Part shown: positions 13,513-64,000 of the stretch, in pieces
Layout of the letters: every line of letters begins with the position of its first letter
How positions within the stretch are numbered: position 1 is the first letter of the stretch
Assembly (NCBI GenBank): GCA_944326565.1
Contig: CALVEL010000002.1
Location: 186,001 to 250,000, forward strand
Length of the DNA stretch: 64,000 nt
Reading direction: 5' to 3'
Source: Candidatus Gastranaerophilales bacterium
GTDB lineage: Bacteria > Cyanobacteriota > Vampirovibrionia > Gastranaerophilales > Gastranaerophilaceae
Notes under the pieces: generated by a model
Seen by the model: the letters and a program-made list of their open reading frames with translations, nothing else
The model's database searches: none
What the model was told of the DNA's origin: nothing
Translations under genes and position numbers: made by a program

Positions 13513-13791
13513 TTATAAATTGTGCATGTTATCAAAAATTTCTTTTCTCTGAACCCAAATTTCCATACCTAGTTCTTTGCCTATATTTAAAAGAGCTTCT
13601 TTGATTTCTTTGAATGAATATTTTGATTTTTCAATATTTCCCAGCATGAACATTACAAAATGTCCTTGCATAAGAGTTTGTTTTATATCTTCTATATTGA
13701 CTTCATATTCAGCCATTACTGTTGCTACTTTTGCAACAATTCCGACTTTATCAATTCCTGAAACGGTTATAATAATTTGTTGATCTGTCAT
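13513..13791 (-). CDS. ACT-domain protein
   Basis: A 92-residue single ACT domain of the UPF0237 type: IIITVSGIDKVGIVAKVATVMAEYEVNIEDIKQTLMQG followed by FVMFMLGNIEKS. ACT domains bind amino acids and modulate partners. The gene starts one base inside the stop of the upstream amino-acid symporter, so it is translationally coupled to it. An amino-acid sensing role next to the transporter is inferred. No enzyme domain is attached. Confidence 0.88.
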   Translation of the reverse strand: MTDQQIIITVSGIDKVGIVAKVATVMAEYEVNIEDIKQTLMQGHFVMFMLGNIEKSKYSFKEIKEALLNIGKELGMEIWVQRKEIFDNMHNL

Positions 13792-15371
13792 TATGAACCT
13801 TCTTCTGTTGTTGTAACAGTCGCTACAGCCGGAGCCGCTGTTGGCGTTACTGATTTAATCCAATCAGGCACGATGAATTTTCCGATATTATGATTTTTAC
13901 AATATAATTTTAAATCATTTTTGATTTCAGGAGCTAAGACATATAAAGCAATGATATTTGGTACTGACATTGCTATCATCATTGCATCAGTGATATTTAT
14001 AACAGATGCAACATTCATTGCAGATCCTATAACTATAAATACACAGTAGATAATATCAAAAGCAAGGTTACGTTTATGTCCTTCACCTACTAAGAATGTC
14101 CATGCTTTTTGTCCGTAATATGCCCAACTTATTAAAGTTGATAATGCAAATAAAATTACTACTATTGATAAAATATATGGGAAGAATGAAATTACAGATT
14201 CAAATGCAGAGCTTGCAAGTTCAATTCCTGAAATTTTACCTACCTGAGTTTGATCTAAAATTCCTGAGAATACAATCGCAAATGAAGTTAAAAGACATAA
14301 GATACCGGTCAAAAGAGTCTCTAAAAGAGCTACAAAACCTTGAGAGACAGGTTCATTTGTTTTAACAGTTGCATAAGCAATAGCCGCGGCACCAGTACCA
14401 GCTTCATTTGACTGGACTGAACGTCTGAGTCCTATGATAATAGTTCCGAATACACCGCCAGCGACAGCATGTGGTGAAAAAGCTTCACGAACAATAAGAG
14501 CTATAGCATGAGGTATGTGCATAAAGTTTGCAAGAATTACAATTAAACCTGCACCGATATATAAGAAACACATTGTAGGTACTAAAATTGTTGTAACTTT
14601 AGAAATACTTTTAATCCCATCAACAACAGCAAGCCACACAAGCACTGCAATTAACAATCCGAATACCCAAGTGTATCCGTGCATAAAACTGTGTTCTCCA
14701 CCGGTAATTAATAATAACTGATGCGCAGATTGATTTACCTGAATCATATTTCCGCCTGAAATTGCACCACCGATACAAAGCACTGCAAATATTGCAGAAA
14801 GAGGTTGACCAAGCCATCTCATTTTCTTTCTTGTAAGTCCATGAGCTATATAGTGCATTGGTCCGCCTGATACAGTACCGTCTAAATTAAATCTTCTGTA
14901 TTTGACAGCTAGTGAAGCTTCGACAAATTTTATAGACATACCTAAGATTGCACCTGCAAAAATCCAAAAAGCAGCACCCGGACCACCTATTGAAATTGAA
15001 ATTGCAACACCTGCAATACTTCCTATACCTATTGTACCAGATAGTGCGGTTGCAAGTGCCTGAAATGATGATACTTCACCGTTCCCGTCTGAAGATTTAT
15101 CAGATGGCTTTGCGACTACATCAATTGCATGTTTGAGTCCCCATATAGAAATTCCTCTGAAAAATATTGTAAAGAATATACCAGCAATTAATATCCAGAA
15201 TATAATTGCTGGAACACTCGAGCCACCTATTTTGACCGGAAAGAAAATTAAATTCGCAACCGCATCTGATATAGGTGCTATGTGTTTATCCATAAATTGA
15301 TCTACATTCATTGCGTTTGCATTTTGTACGTTAAATAAGAGTGTTAAAAGTACAATCAAAAATTTGTTCAT
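13791..15371 (-). CDS. Sodium:alanine/glycine symporter (AGCS family)
   Basis: A 526-residue inner-membrane symporter that imports alanine or glycine with sodium. The family core GTIGIGSIAGVAISISIGGPGAAFWIF and the VEASLAVKYR segment are clear, as is QSNEAGTGAAAIAYA further on. About ten or more hydrophobic spans are visible. An N-terminal signal-like segment (LIVLLTLLFNVQNANA) precedes the first usual span, which is longer than in many AGCS members. The tail is Ala/Thr/Val-rich. It is coupled to the ACT gene. I looked for a glycine riboswitch in the leader and saw none. Confidence 0.94.
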   Translation of the reverse strand: MNKFLIVLLTLLFNVQNANAMNVDQFMDKHIAPISDAVANLIFFPVKIGGSSVPAIIFWILIAGIFFTIFFRGISIWGLKHAIDVVAKPSDKSSDGNGEVSSFQALATALSGTIGIGSIAGVAISISIGGPGAAFWIFAGAILGMSIKFVEASLAVKYRRFNLDGTVSGGPMHYIAHGLTRKKMRWLGQPLSAIFAVLCIGGAISGGNMIQVNQSAHQLLLITGGEHSFMHGYTWVFGLLIAVLVWLAVVDGIKSISKVTTILVPTMCFLYIGAGLIVILANFMHIPHAIALIVREAFSPHAVAGGVFGTIIIGLRRSVQSNEAGTGAAAIAYATVKTNEPVSQGFVALLETLLTGILCLLTSFAIVFSGILDQTQVGKISGIELASSAFESVISFFPYILSIVVILFALSTLISWAYYGQKAWTFLVGEGHKRNLAFDIIYCVFIVIGSAMNVASVINITDAMMIAMSVPNIIALYVLAPEIKNDLKLYCKNHNIGKFIVPDWIKSVTPTAAPAVATVTTTEEGS

Positions 15372-15602: not shown

Positions 15603-16249
15603 TTATTTAACCCAAGGATAGTCTTTGGGAATTTTCCAACCATTAGCTTGAATTAGTGCGGAACAAGAATTTCTTTGCTTAGGATTGTAACATAGAGATT
15701 TTTTCATTTTATAGCTTGAATGTTGCCAAAAAGTTTCAACCTGTTTAGTTTCAGGATTATATACAAAAGCAAAACCATTAATACCATCAAAAGAAATGTC
15801 TTTTGATGGATTGATAAGATAAAAAATAGTTAAAGTATTACTATTAGCGAGTAAAGCACTTCCAAATCCACTGCCATCATTAAATATATATTTTATATAA
15901 GTAGGATTAAGTTCTTTTTTTTCAATTGTAGATATATATTTTATAATGTATTCATCATACCATTTTATAAGATATTCTGAATTATCATTTGTTTCAAATG
16001 TTTTAAATGGTATATCCCCATGTTCTTCAACTGACCTAAGTAATGCCTGATTCATTATTGAATAAAATTTTGCTAAACGCGTTTCAATTATGTGTCTTTT
16101 ATAATTTAAAATTATAAGGGGTAGAGTCATTGAAATTACAATACCAATAATGCCGAGGGTTACTAATATCTCAGCAAGAGTAAAGCCAAAACTATATTTA
16201 AGCCCCCCCCCCCCCCTACTAAAACTCTCTCATAGTCTATATTTTGCAT
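15603..16249 (-). CDS. Prepilin-like protein, frame broken at a G14 tract (phase OFF)
   Basis: The true start is probably ATG 16249, with TAGGAGA seven bases upstream. It encodes MQNIDYERVLV, then 14 G, then a frame reading LKYSFGFTLAEILVTLGIIGIV and continuing to the stop at 15603. With 14 G the two parts are out of frame, and translation from 16249 would stop at a TAG soon after the tract. With 12 or 15 G the whole 215-residue protein is open. The mature part has a type IV pilin N-terminal helix, cleavage before FTLAE and a C-terminus GWKIPKDYPWVK, like the prepilin at 39150. A minor pilin or type II secretion-like pseudopilin role is inferred. Confidence 0.82.
16203..16216. repeat. Homopolymer tract: 14 C (G14 on the coding strand)
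   Basis: A run of 14 identical G:C pairs in AT-rich DNA, inside the leader-coding part of the 15603-16249 prepilin gene. Candidate slipped-strand switch; in frame only at 12 or 15. Confidence 0.9.
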
Positions 16250-16301
16250 ACTTTCTCCTATATACGTATACTATTTACTGGTGTATTTTATCAATTTTTT
16301 A

Positions 16302-17273
16302 TTAATAAGTCAATATTTGTATTTTTAGATTGCAAATTTTTTCATAAGAATTTTCAATACCATTTTTTAATTCAATATCTGTTTTAGCTTTTTGAGCCAA
16401 AGATTCAATTATAGTGATAGTTTCAGGCGTTGAATTTCTGTAAATAAACATATTTATTCCTGCTTTAATTCCCATAATGCAGGCATCTATTGCTCCGTAT
16501 GCTGCAACACCTTTCATAATCATATCATCAGAGATAATTATTCCATTATAGTCCAAATTATTTCTTAGATAAGAAAGAGCATTTTTGCTAAGTGATGAAG
16601 GGATGGGTGTCTCATCAAAACATTTACAATGGAGATGGGCTGCCATAATCATTTTTATTCCATTATTTATGGCTGATTTGAAAGGTGCTATATGAATTTT
16701 TTCCATAGTATCTATTGGCAAATCTATTACAGGTAGACTGAGATGACTGTCAGTATCGGCATCACCATGACCGGGAAAATGTTTTACGCAAGGCAAAATG
16801 CCGTTTTCTAAATAAGTTTTTGAAACTATCTTTTCAGCTTTAATTACATCAATGCTATTGTCAGAAAATGCTCTTTCTCCTATAATCGGGTTTTTAGGGT
16901 TTGTATTTACATCAATACAGGGAGCAAAATTTAAATTTATTCCAAAATCTTTTAGTTCTTTTGCAATTTCCTCAGTCTGTTTTTGCAAGAAGTCTTCGCC
17001 TTTAGCATAAGCAAATCTTGCTGATAGATATTTTTTACCGTTGTAAATATTTTCTGTTCTTTCAACCCGTCCTCCTTCTTGGTCTATTGAAAGAAAAAGT
17101 GGAGCGCTGGATTTATTTTTTATATCTTTTATAAATGTTTTGAATTGATCTTTTGATTGAATATCGTGTGTAAAAAATATAAGACCTCCGAGAGGATATG
17201 AAAGAGCTTTTTCATATCCCCCGCCTTCGGTTCCTAAAATAAACATTGAATATACTTTATCAATCAAATTCAT
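16302..17273 (-). CDS. nagZ: Beta-N-acetylhexosaminidase, GH3 (NagZ-like)
   Basis: A 323-residue GH3 enzyme that would remove N-acetylglucosamine from peptidoglycan fragments during cell-wall recycling. The NagZ-type signature KHFPGHGDADTDSH is present, with SIDQEGGRVER near residue 80 and IISDDMIMKG holding the nucleophile Asp. No signal peptide, so cytoplasmic as for NagZ. I chose the ATG at 17273, four bases after the upstream stop. A longer frame to 17312 would overlap the upstream gene by 35 bases and adds nothing family-like. It is in operon with the unknown gene upstream. Confidence 0.9.
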   Translation of the reverse strand: MNLIDKVYSMFILGTEGGGYEKALSYPLGGLIFFTHDIQSKDQFKTFIKDIKNKSSAPLFLSIDQEGGRVERTENIYNGKKYLSARFAYAKGEDFLQKQTEEIAKELKDFGINLNFAPCIDVNTNPKNPIIGERAFSDNSIDVIKAEKIVSKTYLENGILPCVKHFPGHGDADTDSHLSLPVIDLPIDTMEKIHIAPFKSAINNGIKMIMAAHLHCKCFDETPIPSSLSKNALSYLRNNLDYNGIIISDDMIMKGVAAYGAIDACIMGIKAGINMFIYRNSTPETITIIESLAQKAKTDIELKNGIENSYEKICNLKIQILTY

Positions 17274-17277
17274 AGTT

Positions 17278-17889
17278 TTATACACTTGCTGTTTGAGTAA
17301 ATAGTTTTTCATTTAAAGGATATAAAATTTTAAAATCGCCATTTTCAACTACTTCTGCAATTTTATCCAAAATAGTTTCTTTTTCTGTAGCTGTTAGTTT
17401 TTGTATTCCCAAATTTAATTCTATATCATTTGTATTTTGTACTTTTATAAATCCTTGATTTAATTTTAAAAACTCTTCATATTCATCAAGAACTCTTGGA
17501 ATAAAGTCGTTAATTTTATAATCTTGTCCCAAATAATATTTAACATCTTTTTTAAATTGTTCTAAATATTGTCTTATGAAATCAACTTCACCCGTAATTT
17601 CTTTTTCATCATATTCTCCGCCGTAGCAAAGATTATTCAATACAGGTTTATTTAAATCCTTAATACATGCAGCCCAGAGGATACAGCCAAGATAGAACCC
17701 TATGTATGTATCTATAAGATGTTGAATTTTATTGTAATACATTTTAAATTTCATCTTTTTTTGATTGAAATTTCTTACTCGTATTAAATCCTGATAAATA
17801 TTTTCTATACTTGGTACAAAAGCATTCAAATGTACTATAAACCCTGGATCAAATTGTGCACCGTCTGTAAAGTCAAATTTTTCTGTCAT
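17278..17889 (-). CDS. Hypothetical protein, 203 aa
   Basis: Not recognised. A soluble, helix-rich protein with no signal peptide. Features are a Tyr/Phe-rich segment (MYYNKIQHLIDTYIGFYLGC) and acidic stretches. It lies four bases upstream of the NagZ-like gene and about 40 bases after the secreted hydrolase-like gene, so the three probably form one transcript. Function cannot be inferred. Confidence 0.75.
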   Translation of the reverse strand: MTEKFDFTDGAQFDPGFIVHLNAFVPSIENIYQDLIRVRNFNQKKMKFKMYYNKIQHLIDTYIGFYLGCILWAACIKDLNKPVLNNLCYGGEYDEKEITGEVDFIRQYLEQFKKDVKYYLGQDYKINDFIPRVLDEYEEFLKLNQGFIKVQNTNDIELNLGIQKLTATEKETILDKIAEVVENGDFKILYPLNEKLFTQTASV

Positions 17890-56949: not shown

Positions 56950-57747
56950 ATGCAGACTATGATTGAAAACCGGGGGGGGGGGGCACCCGAAAATAAGCTC
57001 CTAGCAGGTAAAAAAACAGGATTTACATTAGCAGAGGTCTTGATAACCCTTGGCATATTGGGTGTAGTAATGGCAATGACCCTGCCGTCAATAATAGGGA
57101 GATATAACGAAAAAGCGCGTGTAACCCAGCTTAAAAAGAGTTATACATTGCTTTCACAAACTTTTAATCGAATAGTAAGTGAGACAGAAGCATCTCCAAA
57201 GGAATGGGGATTAGGTGGTATGTATGATGCAAATACACATATTACACTGGCAAATAAATTTGTGCCATATTTTAAAGTACTTCAAAATTGTGTAGGCAAA
57301 GATAAAAATTATACAAGAAAACATTGTACTGAAAATGATTACTATTCAGAACCTAATTATTATGCAAGTGTAAGGTTAGTAGATGGAACAACCTTAATTT
57401 TTAGAAATTGGAATAATGACTGTAGTTATAATTTTGGTAATAGTAAATTTCTACAGAATATATGCGGAACAATAATTGTAGATGTAAACGGTCAAAAAAA
57501 TCCTAATCTTCTAGGTAATGATATATTTACGTTTTATTTAACAAATTGGGGTATATTTCCTACAGGGACGGAATTTGAGAATGTATTAACTTTTGAGACA
57601 TATTGCAATAAAAATACATCTTGGGGAATATTTATAGGTAATTATATGAACGGTAGCGGATGTACAGCTTGGGCATTGTATAAGGAGAATCAAGAGTATT
57701 TACATTGTGCCGGTCTGAGCTGGAAAGGTAAAGATAAATGTAAGTAA
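56950..57747 (+). CDS. Prepilin-like protein with in-frame G12 leader tract (phase ON)
   Basis: A 265-residue prepilin. The leader MQTMIENRGGGAPENKLLAG-KKTG is followed by FTLAEVLITLGILGVVMAMT; cleavage would follow Gly24. The 12 G encode part of Arg plus glycines, in frame, so the gene is open as assembled. The pilin domain has Cys pairs and ends CAGLSWKGKDKCK. AAGGAG sits seven bases before the ATG. Its 3' end shares 96 bases with one mismatch with the remnant at 30392-30601. It ends directly against the convergent methyltransferase gene. Confidence 0.92.
   Translation: MQTMIENRGGGAPENKLLAGKKTGFTLAEVLITLGILGVVMAMTLPSIIGRYNEKARVTQLKKSYTLLSQTFNRIVSETEASPKEWGLGGMYDANTHITLANKFVPYFKVLQNCVGKDKNYTRKHCTENDYYSEPNYYASVRLVDGTTLIFRNWNNDCSYNFGNSKFLQNICGTIIVDVNGQKNPNLLGNDIFTFYLTNWGIFPTGTEFENVLTFETYCNKNTSWGIFIGNYMNGSGCTAWALYKENQEYLHCAGLSWKGKDKCK
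56972..56983. repeat. Homopolymer tract: 12 G
   Basis: Twelve consecutive G in the leader-coding part of the 56950 prepilin gene, in frame with the pilin domain. Candidate phase switch. Confidence 0.92.
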
Positions 57748-63466: not shown

Positions 63467-64000
63467 ATGGCTAAAAAGCAGACTATGATTGAAATTCGCG
63501 GGGGGGGGGGCAACCCGTAAAACAGGCTCCTGTTGTGATATAGCGATTAGTCATTCCGGACCTGAGCCGGAATCTATTAATGTTAATATAAATAGACTCC
63601 GGATCGGAGGCCGGAGTGACGAAGGACGCCGGACTCCACATATCCCGTCGCGTCACTCTGACGAAAGTCAGAATCTATTAATTTTGTTAAAAAATATTTG
63701 GCAATTTTGGTGTCAAAAGCGTAAAAAAGCCGCCTTTACGCTTGCGGAAGTCCTTATAACCCTTGGCATAATCGGGATAGTTGCTGCAATGACACTGCCG
63801 TCGTTGATACAGCATAAACAAGAAAAAGTAACAGTCACCCGTCTTAAAAAAGCATATTCGGTATTATCTCAAACATACGACCGCCTATTTTATGAAAATG
63901 GTTCTGACCCCACAGGCTGGGGACTGGGGGATATGTATGATCAGCAAAGTCATGTAATTCTGGCAAACAAATTTCTCCCCTATTTGAATGTAATCCAGAA
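63467..64000 (+). CDS. Prepilin-like protein, frame broken at a G10 tract (phase OFF), partial
   Basis: AAGAGGAG precedes ATG 63467, which encodes MAKKQTMIEIR, then a 10-G tract. As assembled the start frame stops at a TAG at 63548. The pilin frame (KKAAFTLAEVLITLGIIGIV and on) is one base out and is joined if the tract is 9 or 12 G. In that case the frame is open from ATG to the window edge. The leader then includes an unusual insert of about 70 residues, coded by palindromic repeats. The leader start shares KQTMIE with the 56950 gene. Cleavage site has Ala, not Gly, before Phe. The 3' end is off the window. Confidence 0.85.
63500..63509. repeat. Homopolymer tract: 10 G
   Basis: Ten consecutive G in the leader-coding part of the 63467 prepilin gene. 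Out of frame at 10; in frame at 9 or 12. Confidence 0.9.
63550..63680. repeat. Cluster of three palindromic repeat units
   Basis: Unit 1 (63550-63580) is GTCATTCCGG, a loop, CCGG and AATCTATTAA. Unit 2 (63591-63620) is the same type in reverse, ending CCGGAGTGAC. Unit 3 (63652-63680) is GTCACTCTGACGAAAGTCAG and AATCTATTA. The local GC is far above its surroundings. It lies within the prepilin gene between leader start and FTLAE and stays open in the pilin frame. Confidence 0.8.

Follow-up and report, generated by a model that had tools for sequence, protein, structure and literature searches.

A G-tract prepilin gene of a gut Gastranaerophilales bacterium, probably one of about 32 slippage-switched pilin-like loci

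The gene described here lies on the minus strand of a 64,000-nucleotide window (the whole stretch of DNA that was analysed) from a gut bacterium that is a non-photosynthetic relative of cyanobacteria. It is probably one of about 32 type IV pilin-like contingency loci that are switched by replication slippage, are mostly OFF and typically lie one base from ON. A preliminary description of this DNA had called it a prepilin gene, placed the control of its frame in a run of G and judged it OFF in the assembly. The present analysis supports all three points, and the sequence features are those of a phase-variable-type G-tract prepilin gene in its OFF state. The gene is an ordinary member of a large and apparently undescribed set of G-tract pilin genes.

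On the minus strand, the Shine-Dalgarno (SD) sequence AGGAGA (16254-16259, read directly) is followed by an ATG at 16249, from which a 33-nucleotide leader encoding MQNIDYERVLV (16217-16249) leads to a tract of exactly 14 G (16216-16203, counted in the window sequence). Translation from this ATG yields MQNIDYERVLVGGGGGLNIVLALLLLRY and terminates at a directly read TAG (16165-16163). The prepilin frame, LKYSFGFTLAEILVTLGIIGIV..., is open from 16202 over 199 codons and closes with the stop at 15605-15603, and this body (15603-16202) contains the N-methylation motif GFTLAEILVTLGI and a DUF6613-like part. On the 5′ side of the tract, the prepilin frame is blocked by a TGA. The predicted product has 214 aa with 12 G and 215 aa with 15 G. 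The tract of 14 is thus two over or one short, with 15 and 12 as its nearest in-frame lengths; this frame class is rare within its own genome and lies off the genome's usual one-over position. The preliminary description had given the start, SD site, tract and TAG, with the pilin in another frame, correctly to the base; it had also recognized the TGA that closes the pilin frame and the two tract lengths that restore it. Its expectation that a gene caller would start at the internal Met at 16130 is borne out by the list of open reading frames, which begins the gene there (175 aa).

A σ70-like promoter, TTGACT-17-TAAAAT (16285-16313), has its −10 element 41 nt 5′ of the ATG. A promoter scan of this region alone did not rise above chance, and the support comes from a position that is repeated across the tract genes: a TATAAT-like hexamer is found in 28 of the 32, at a median of about 40 nt 5′ of the start. 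The upstream neighbour (16302-17312) looks like a glycoside-hydrolase-3-type gene and the other neighbour (13791-15371) like an amino-acid-carrier-like gene, both names having been taken from the translations by eye.

By its sequence, the product is a pilin or pseudopilin. Pfam matches were obtained to N_methyl (PF07963; 22.2 bits, cut-off 21.2) and to DUF6613 (26.8 bits, cut-off 24.3), and the features of a class III signal are present, with G or A before FTLAE and a hydrophobic helix. At each of the 235 loci counted, the −1 residue was G or A. Across 17 aligned homologues, the FTLAE motif and a C-terminal region around ALIQ-NGWKIPKDYPW are kept. The AlphaFold model (pLDDT 81) places a long N-terminal helix at residues 9-61, followed by β-sheet. 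The seven best rows in a VIA-align comparison were six type IV pilins and one Xcp pseudopilus model (Z 3.5-4.9), and a Foldseek search of the model against the PDB gave no significant match. From this model, the product probably has a pilin fold. The genome also encodes a prepilin peptidase (PF01478 at C1:385674-386063) and has 73 N_methyl matches in total.

The same design recurs throughout the genome. Its 1.87 Mb contain 33 G-runs of at least 8, of which 32 have an SD-backed start on one side and, on the other, an open frame that carries a prepilin motif; the sole run without a downstream prepilin is L040 (C9:36119). G8 is matched 16 times in the window alone, where dinucleotide shuffles predict 0.09 matches. 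The tract genes carry runs of 10-14 G shortly 3′ of the start codon and are mostly out of frame. The module AAGGAGCTGGAAATGCAGACTATGATTGAAATTAT-G12-CACCCGAAAATAAGCTCCT is common to most of them; the reported gene has a different one, which it shares with L031 (C3:197191). Two further tract prepilin genes lie on the plus strand of the window. One (56950-57747) has a 22-nt leader and G12 at 56972-56983 and is ON in the assembly; the other (63467-64000, extending past the window) has G11 at 63500-63510 and is one base over, and thus OFF. A dispersed repeat, ...HSGPEPES...HSDESQNL..., occurs between tract and motif in L025 (window 63510-63735) and in many loci of genome G003 (for example, L228-L267), where the leader is longer by tens of residues and the pilin frame is still open.

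In 197 of 236 loci, the segment that separates tract and motif offers no ATG, GTG or TTG in the pilin frame, so translation has to pass through the tract, and re-initiation past the stop was rejected on the same count. A TTG inside ATGATTGAA, in the pilin frame of many genes of the window's genus (g1), was also considered as a start and rejected, since it has no SD sequence and is missing from other leader types.

Homologues were compared using one genome per species. In a comparison of 500 nt, the close homologues L172 and L173, each from a different species, share 99.2% identity; their differences fall in the tract and at its borders, the tract having 12 G (ON) in one and 13 G (OFF) in the other. 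The pairs L096/L342 and L092/L287 likewise differ in tract length and ON/OFF state. Between L239 and L241, a base at the border of the tract is substituted with no change in total length, and paralogues in genome G054 with similar flanks have runs of 9, 10 and 11 G, which cover all three frames. Strain-level tract variation was sought in viral contigs, with no matches. Homologues without the leader start would, by the preliminary description, count against its reading, and such homologues bear against it in part: those closest to the reported pilin body (L169, L170, L182 and L196, at about 50% identity) lack a tract and start right at the motif. However, the leader-plus-tract module itself recurs on other pilin bodies, L031 among them. 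Together, these two observations suggest from sequence that 5′ modules and pilin bodies get exchanged.

Frames were counted at 269 loci in which an SD-backed start is followed downstream by a long frame: 44 were in frame, 140 one base over and 85 one short. The in-frame share differs from one third (p = 5e-10), in a test that, like the other frame tests, counts loci as independent, many of them being paralogues. Because the same design is in frame at these 44 loci of relatives and paralogues, the earlier wording that the gene is ‘locked’ OFF is unsupported. In the window's genus (five genomes), 68 of the 84 loci were one over, 10 in frame and 6 one short, which departs from the near-random frame states expected under neutrality. 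Removal of loci with identical 12-nt flanks left 50 one over, 8 in frame and 6 one short. Tract length follows leader length: a chi-square test of the binned lengths gives p = 8e-19, and permutation within genomes gives p < 2e-4 for both G000 and G003. Leaders needing 12 G have a modal length of 13 (14 of 21), those needing 11 G a modal length of 12 (48 of 53) and those needing 10 G a modal length of 11 (5 of 10). In genera g7 and g22, 16 of 19 loci were one base short, at 10 G; frames were mixed in G054, MOYE and JAMPIJ, and some lineages look random. The non-random frame argues for selection or for slippage at another level, not against frame switching itself.

The reading that we favour is as follows. 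Each locus has its own promoter, SD sequence, short leader and run of 10-14 G, followed by the prepilin cleavage motif; a repeat tract inside the coding region sets the frame by its length, as is characteristic of contingency loci. Gain or loss of G by replication slippage would bring the start codon into the frame of the pilin body or take it out of that frame. In the in-frame state, a prepilin with a Gly-rich leader would be made, which prepilin peptidase could remove; because the Gly run lies within this leader, slips of three bases would be silent in the mature pilin, as judged from the motif. In the out-of-frame state, the ribosome would mostly halt a few codons past the tract. Slippage would be heritable and fast, ON cells would assemble pili, and selection would favour OFF. 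Populations would then be largely OFF, and each cell would display a small, randomly drawn set of pilins. If ON is disfavoured in bulk and slippage is biased towards the in-frame length, loci would gather one step away. MutS was found in 279 of 288 family genomes, this one included, and loss of mismatch repair was rejected on that basis. With MutS present there is no sign of hypermutability, and nothing requires the tracts to be particularly unstable. In the window's genus, the frames are too uniform for neutral switching (68/10/6) and total length is kept in L239/L241, so slippage is slow or else meets strong counter-selection.

A second reading is possible but clearly less probable: that the family uses programmed slippage, at the level of RNA or the ribosome, in dozens of pilin genes that are not mainly heritable switches. 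The DNA tract would then be stable at one base off, and RNA polymerase or the ribosome would slip on the G-run at a fixed frequency, which would give all cells a constant, low level of pilin. The offset of the slippery site is conserved across members within genera, +1 in g1 and −1 in g7 and g22, and such a conserved offset, as seen in assembled genomes, would fit DNA switching and programmed RNA or ribosomal slippage equally. The compensation of leader length by tract length and the presence of MutS are also in keeping with programmed slippage. In OFF loci, the ATG frame meets a stop at a median of 2 codons past the tract, compared with 6 in the other wrong frame, and the SD region can pair with sequence that lies soon after the tract (complementarity 14.8, versus 12.1 for shuffled sequences, 13.6 for a between-locus swap and 14.1 for a within-genome swap). 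Because this complementarity exceeds all three controls, a hairpin with the tract in its loop could mask the SD sequence, and an SD/anti-SD hairpin of this kind might act as a modulator of programmed slippage. In L013, AGGAGCT 5′ of the start is complementary to AGCTCCT past the tract, and the complementarity is partly locus-specific. Against programmed slippage, 44 loci are already in frame in the DNA, frames are mixed in several genomes (G054, JAMPIJ and MOYE), the sign of the offset is opposite between related genera, and the known bacterial precedent for a pilus G-tract is DNA slippage (PMC9187656).

Errors of sequencing or assembly, by which short reads would add or drop one G in tracts that are truly in frame, are a very improbable source of the pattern. 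The length of a G-tract is difficult to determine, the annotated length in Bifidobacterium breve differed from the majority length (PMC9187656), and contig ends lie near some tracts. However, bins that by their naming style come from the same study (BRZ) give opposite offsets by genus, +1 in G003, G006 and G008 versus −1 in G210 and G034, so platform bias fails to explain the sign; moreover, genomes from other studies share the offset of their relatives. The contig ends, often less than about 100 bp from a tract (the ends of G006:C1 and G006:C8, the start of G006:C14 and several contig starts in G007 and G130), may stem from repeated flanks or from tracts of differing length within the population. 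It is just as improbable that the loci are decaying pseudogenes whose frames are simply broken. Most loci are OFF in the assembly and the reported gene is two G over or one short, as decay would allow, but the pilin bodies keep their full length, with conservation through their last residues, promoter, SD sequence and leader are retained, and the break sits at the G-run, whose length tracks the frame.

Within the genus, 13 of 14 genomes have runs of G9 or longer. In the family, 76 of 288 genomes, spread over 16 of 41 genera, have a G9 run placed 15-45 nt 5′ of a prepilin motif, which is absent from the sampled genomes of the phylum outside that family; in the samples examined, the arrangement is limited to one Gastranaerophilales family. 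When about 85,000 species were scanned, the taxon-named records among the matches listed were Gastranaerophilales, Melainabacteria, Scatousia or Cyanobacteria metagenome-assembled genomes, with two exceptions labelled Fusobacterium (CAG:439 and NALB_7963_5; L067, L079, L080 and L144 in FR900469-FR900479, and L051 and L074 in JAMPIJ01). These Fusobacterium-labelled records look like misnamed Gastranaerophilales. The four genomes richest in G9 runs of any context have 176, 115, 112 and 91; when about 15 loci were sampled in each, a prepilin motif lay directly 3′ in 8-11. Some of the remaining sampled loci were variant-motif prepilins, poly-C-sense prepilins on the other strand or other open reading frames. 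Relatives probably hold many more tract prepilins than the 32 counted here. In G210, L339 and others, a sense-strand poly-C (a Pro run) apparently replaces poly-G in prepilins, and in G210, G022 and G130 (L341, L315, L317 and L312) G-runs precede frames of 390-500 aa without a recognized prepilin motif. A literature search, with most subscription journals and preprints outside its scope, found no paper linking Gastranaerophilales or Melainabacteria to phase variation or pilin homopolymers.

Poly-G switching is known from pilC of Neisseria, whose large phasome and poly-G-switched pilus functions resemble the system described here. The neisserial repertoire of 115 confirmed phase-variable genes (PMC5084427) mixes repeat types and functions, whereas here dozens of paralogous pilin subunits have one G-tract each. 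In Campylobacter, PhasomeIt analysis gives 18-39 phase-variable genes per C. jejuni genome, and coding poly-G, there mostly of 9-10, toggles the frames of surface genes as it would here (PMC6321876). In contrast to the varied functions and near-neutral-drift ON fraction of that draft-genome set (PMC6321876), essentially one family and a non-random frame are seen here. The closest precedent is the set of G-tract switches of sortase pili in B. breve UCC2003 (bbr_0113 and bbr_1889), which are OFF by default, with a productive slip of mainly −1 G, as shown by maximum-depth DNA sequencing (PMC9187656). Both cases concern a gut commensal with a pilus G-tract within the gene and a usual state of OFF. 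In B. breve, G10-G12 in the first gene of a pilus cluster splits its open reading frame in two (PMC9187656), and there are one or two sortase-pilus clusters per genome; here, the genes encode type IV-type prepilins, number 32 in the genome and carry the tract within the leader that is cleaved off. Programmed transcriptional slippage in bacteria, described for A/T runs (PMC1088944), shares with the present loci the restoration of frame via a homopolymer, which here is G. What is new here is the scale, the placement of the tract and the conserved one-base offset.

If the favoured reading is true, an uncultured gut family holds some of the largest single-family homopolymer-switched surface-gene sets known, with tens to possibly more than 100 switched pilins per genome. 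It would also account for gene callers truncating or missing prepilins in this family, and, through the conserved one-base offset, the hitherto vague idea that contingency loci are tuned to a default state would become countable in existing metagenome reads.
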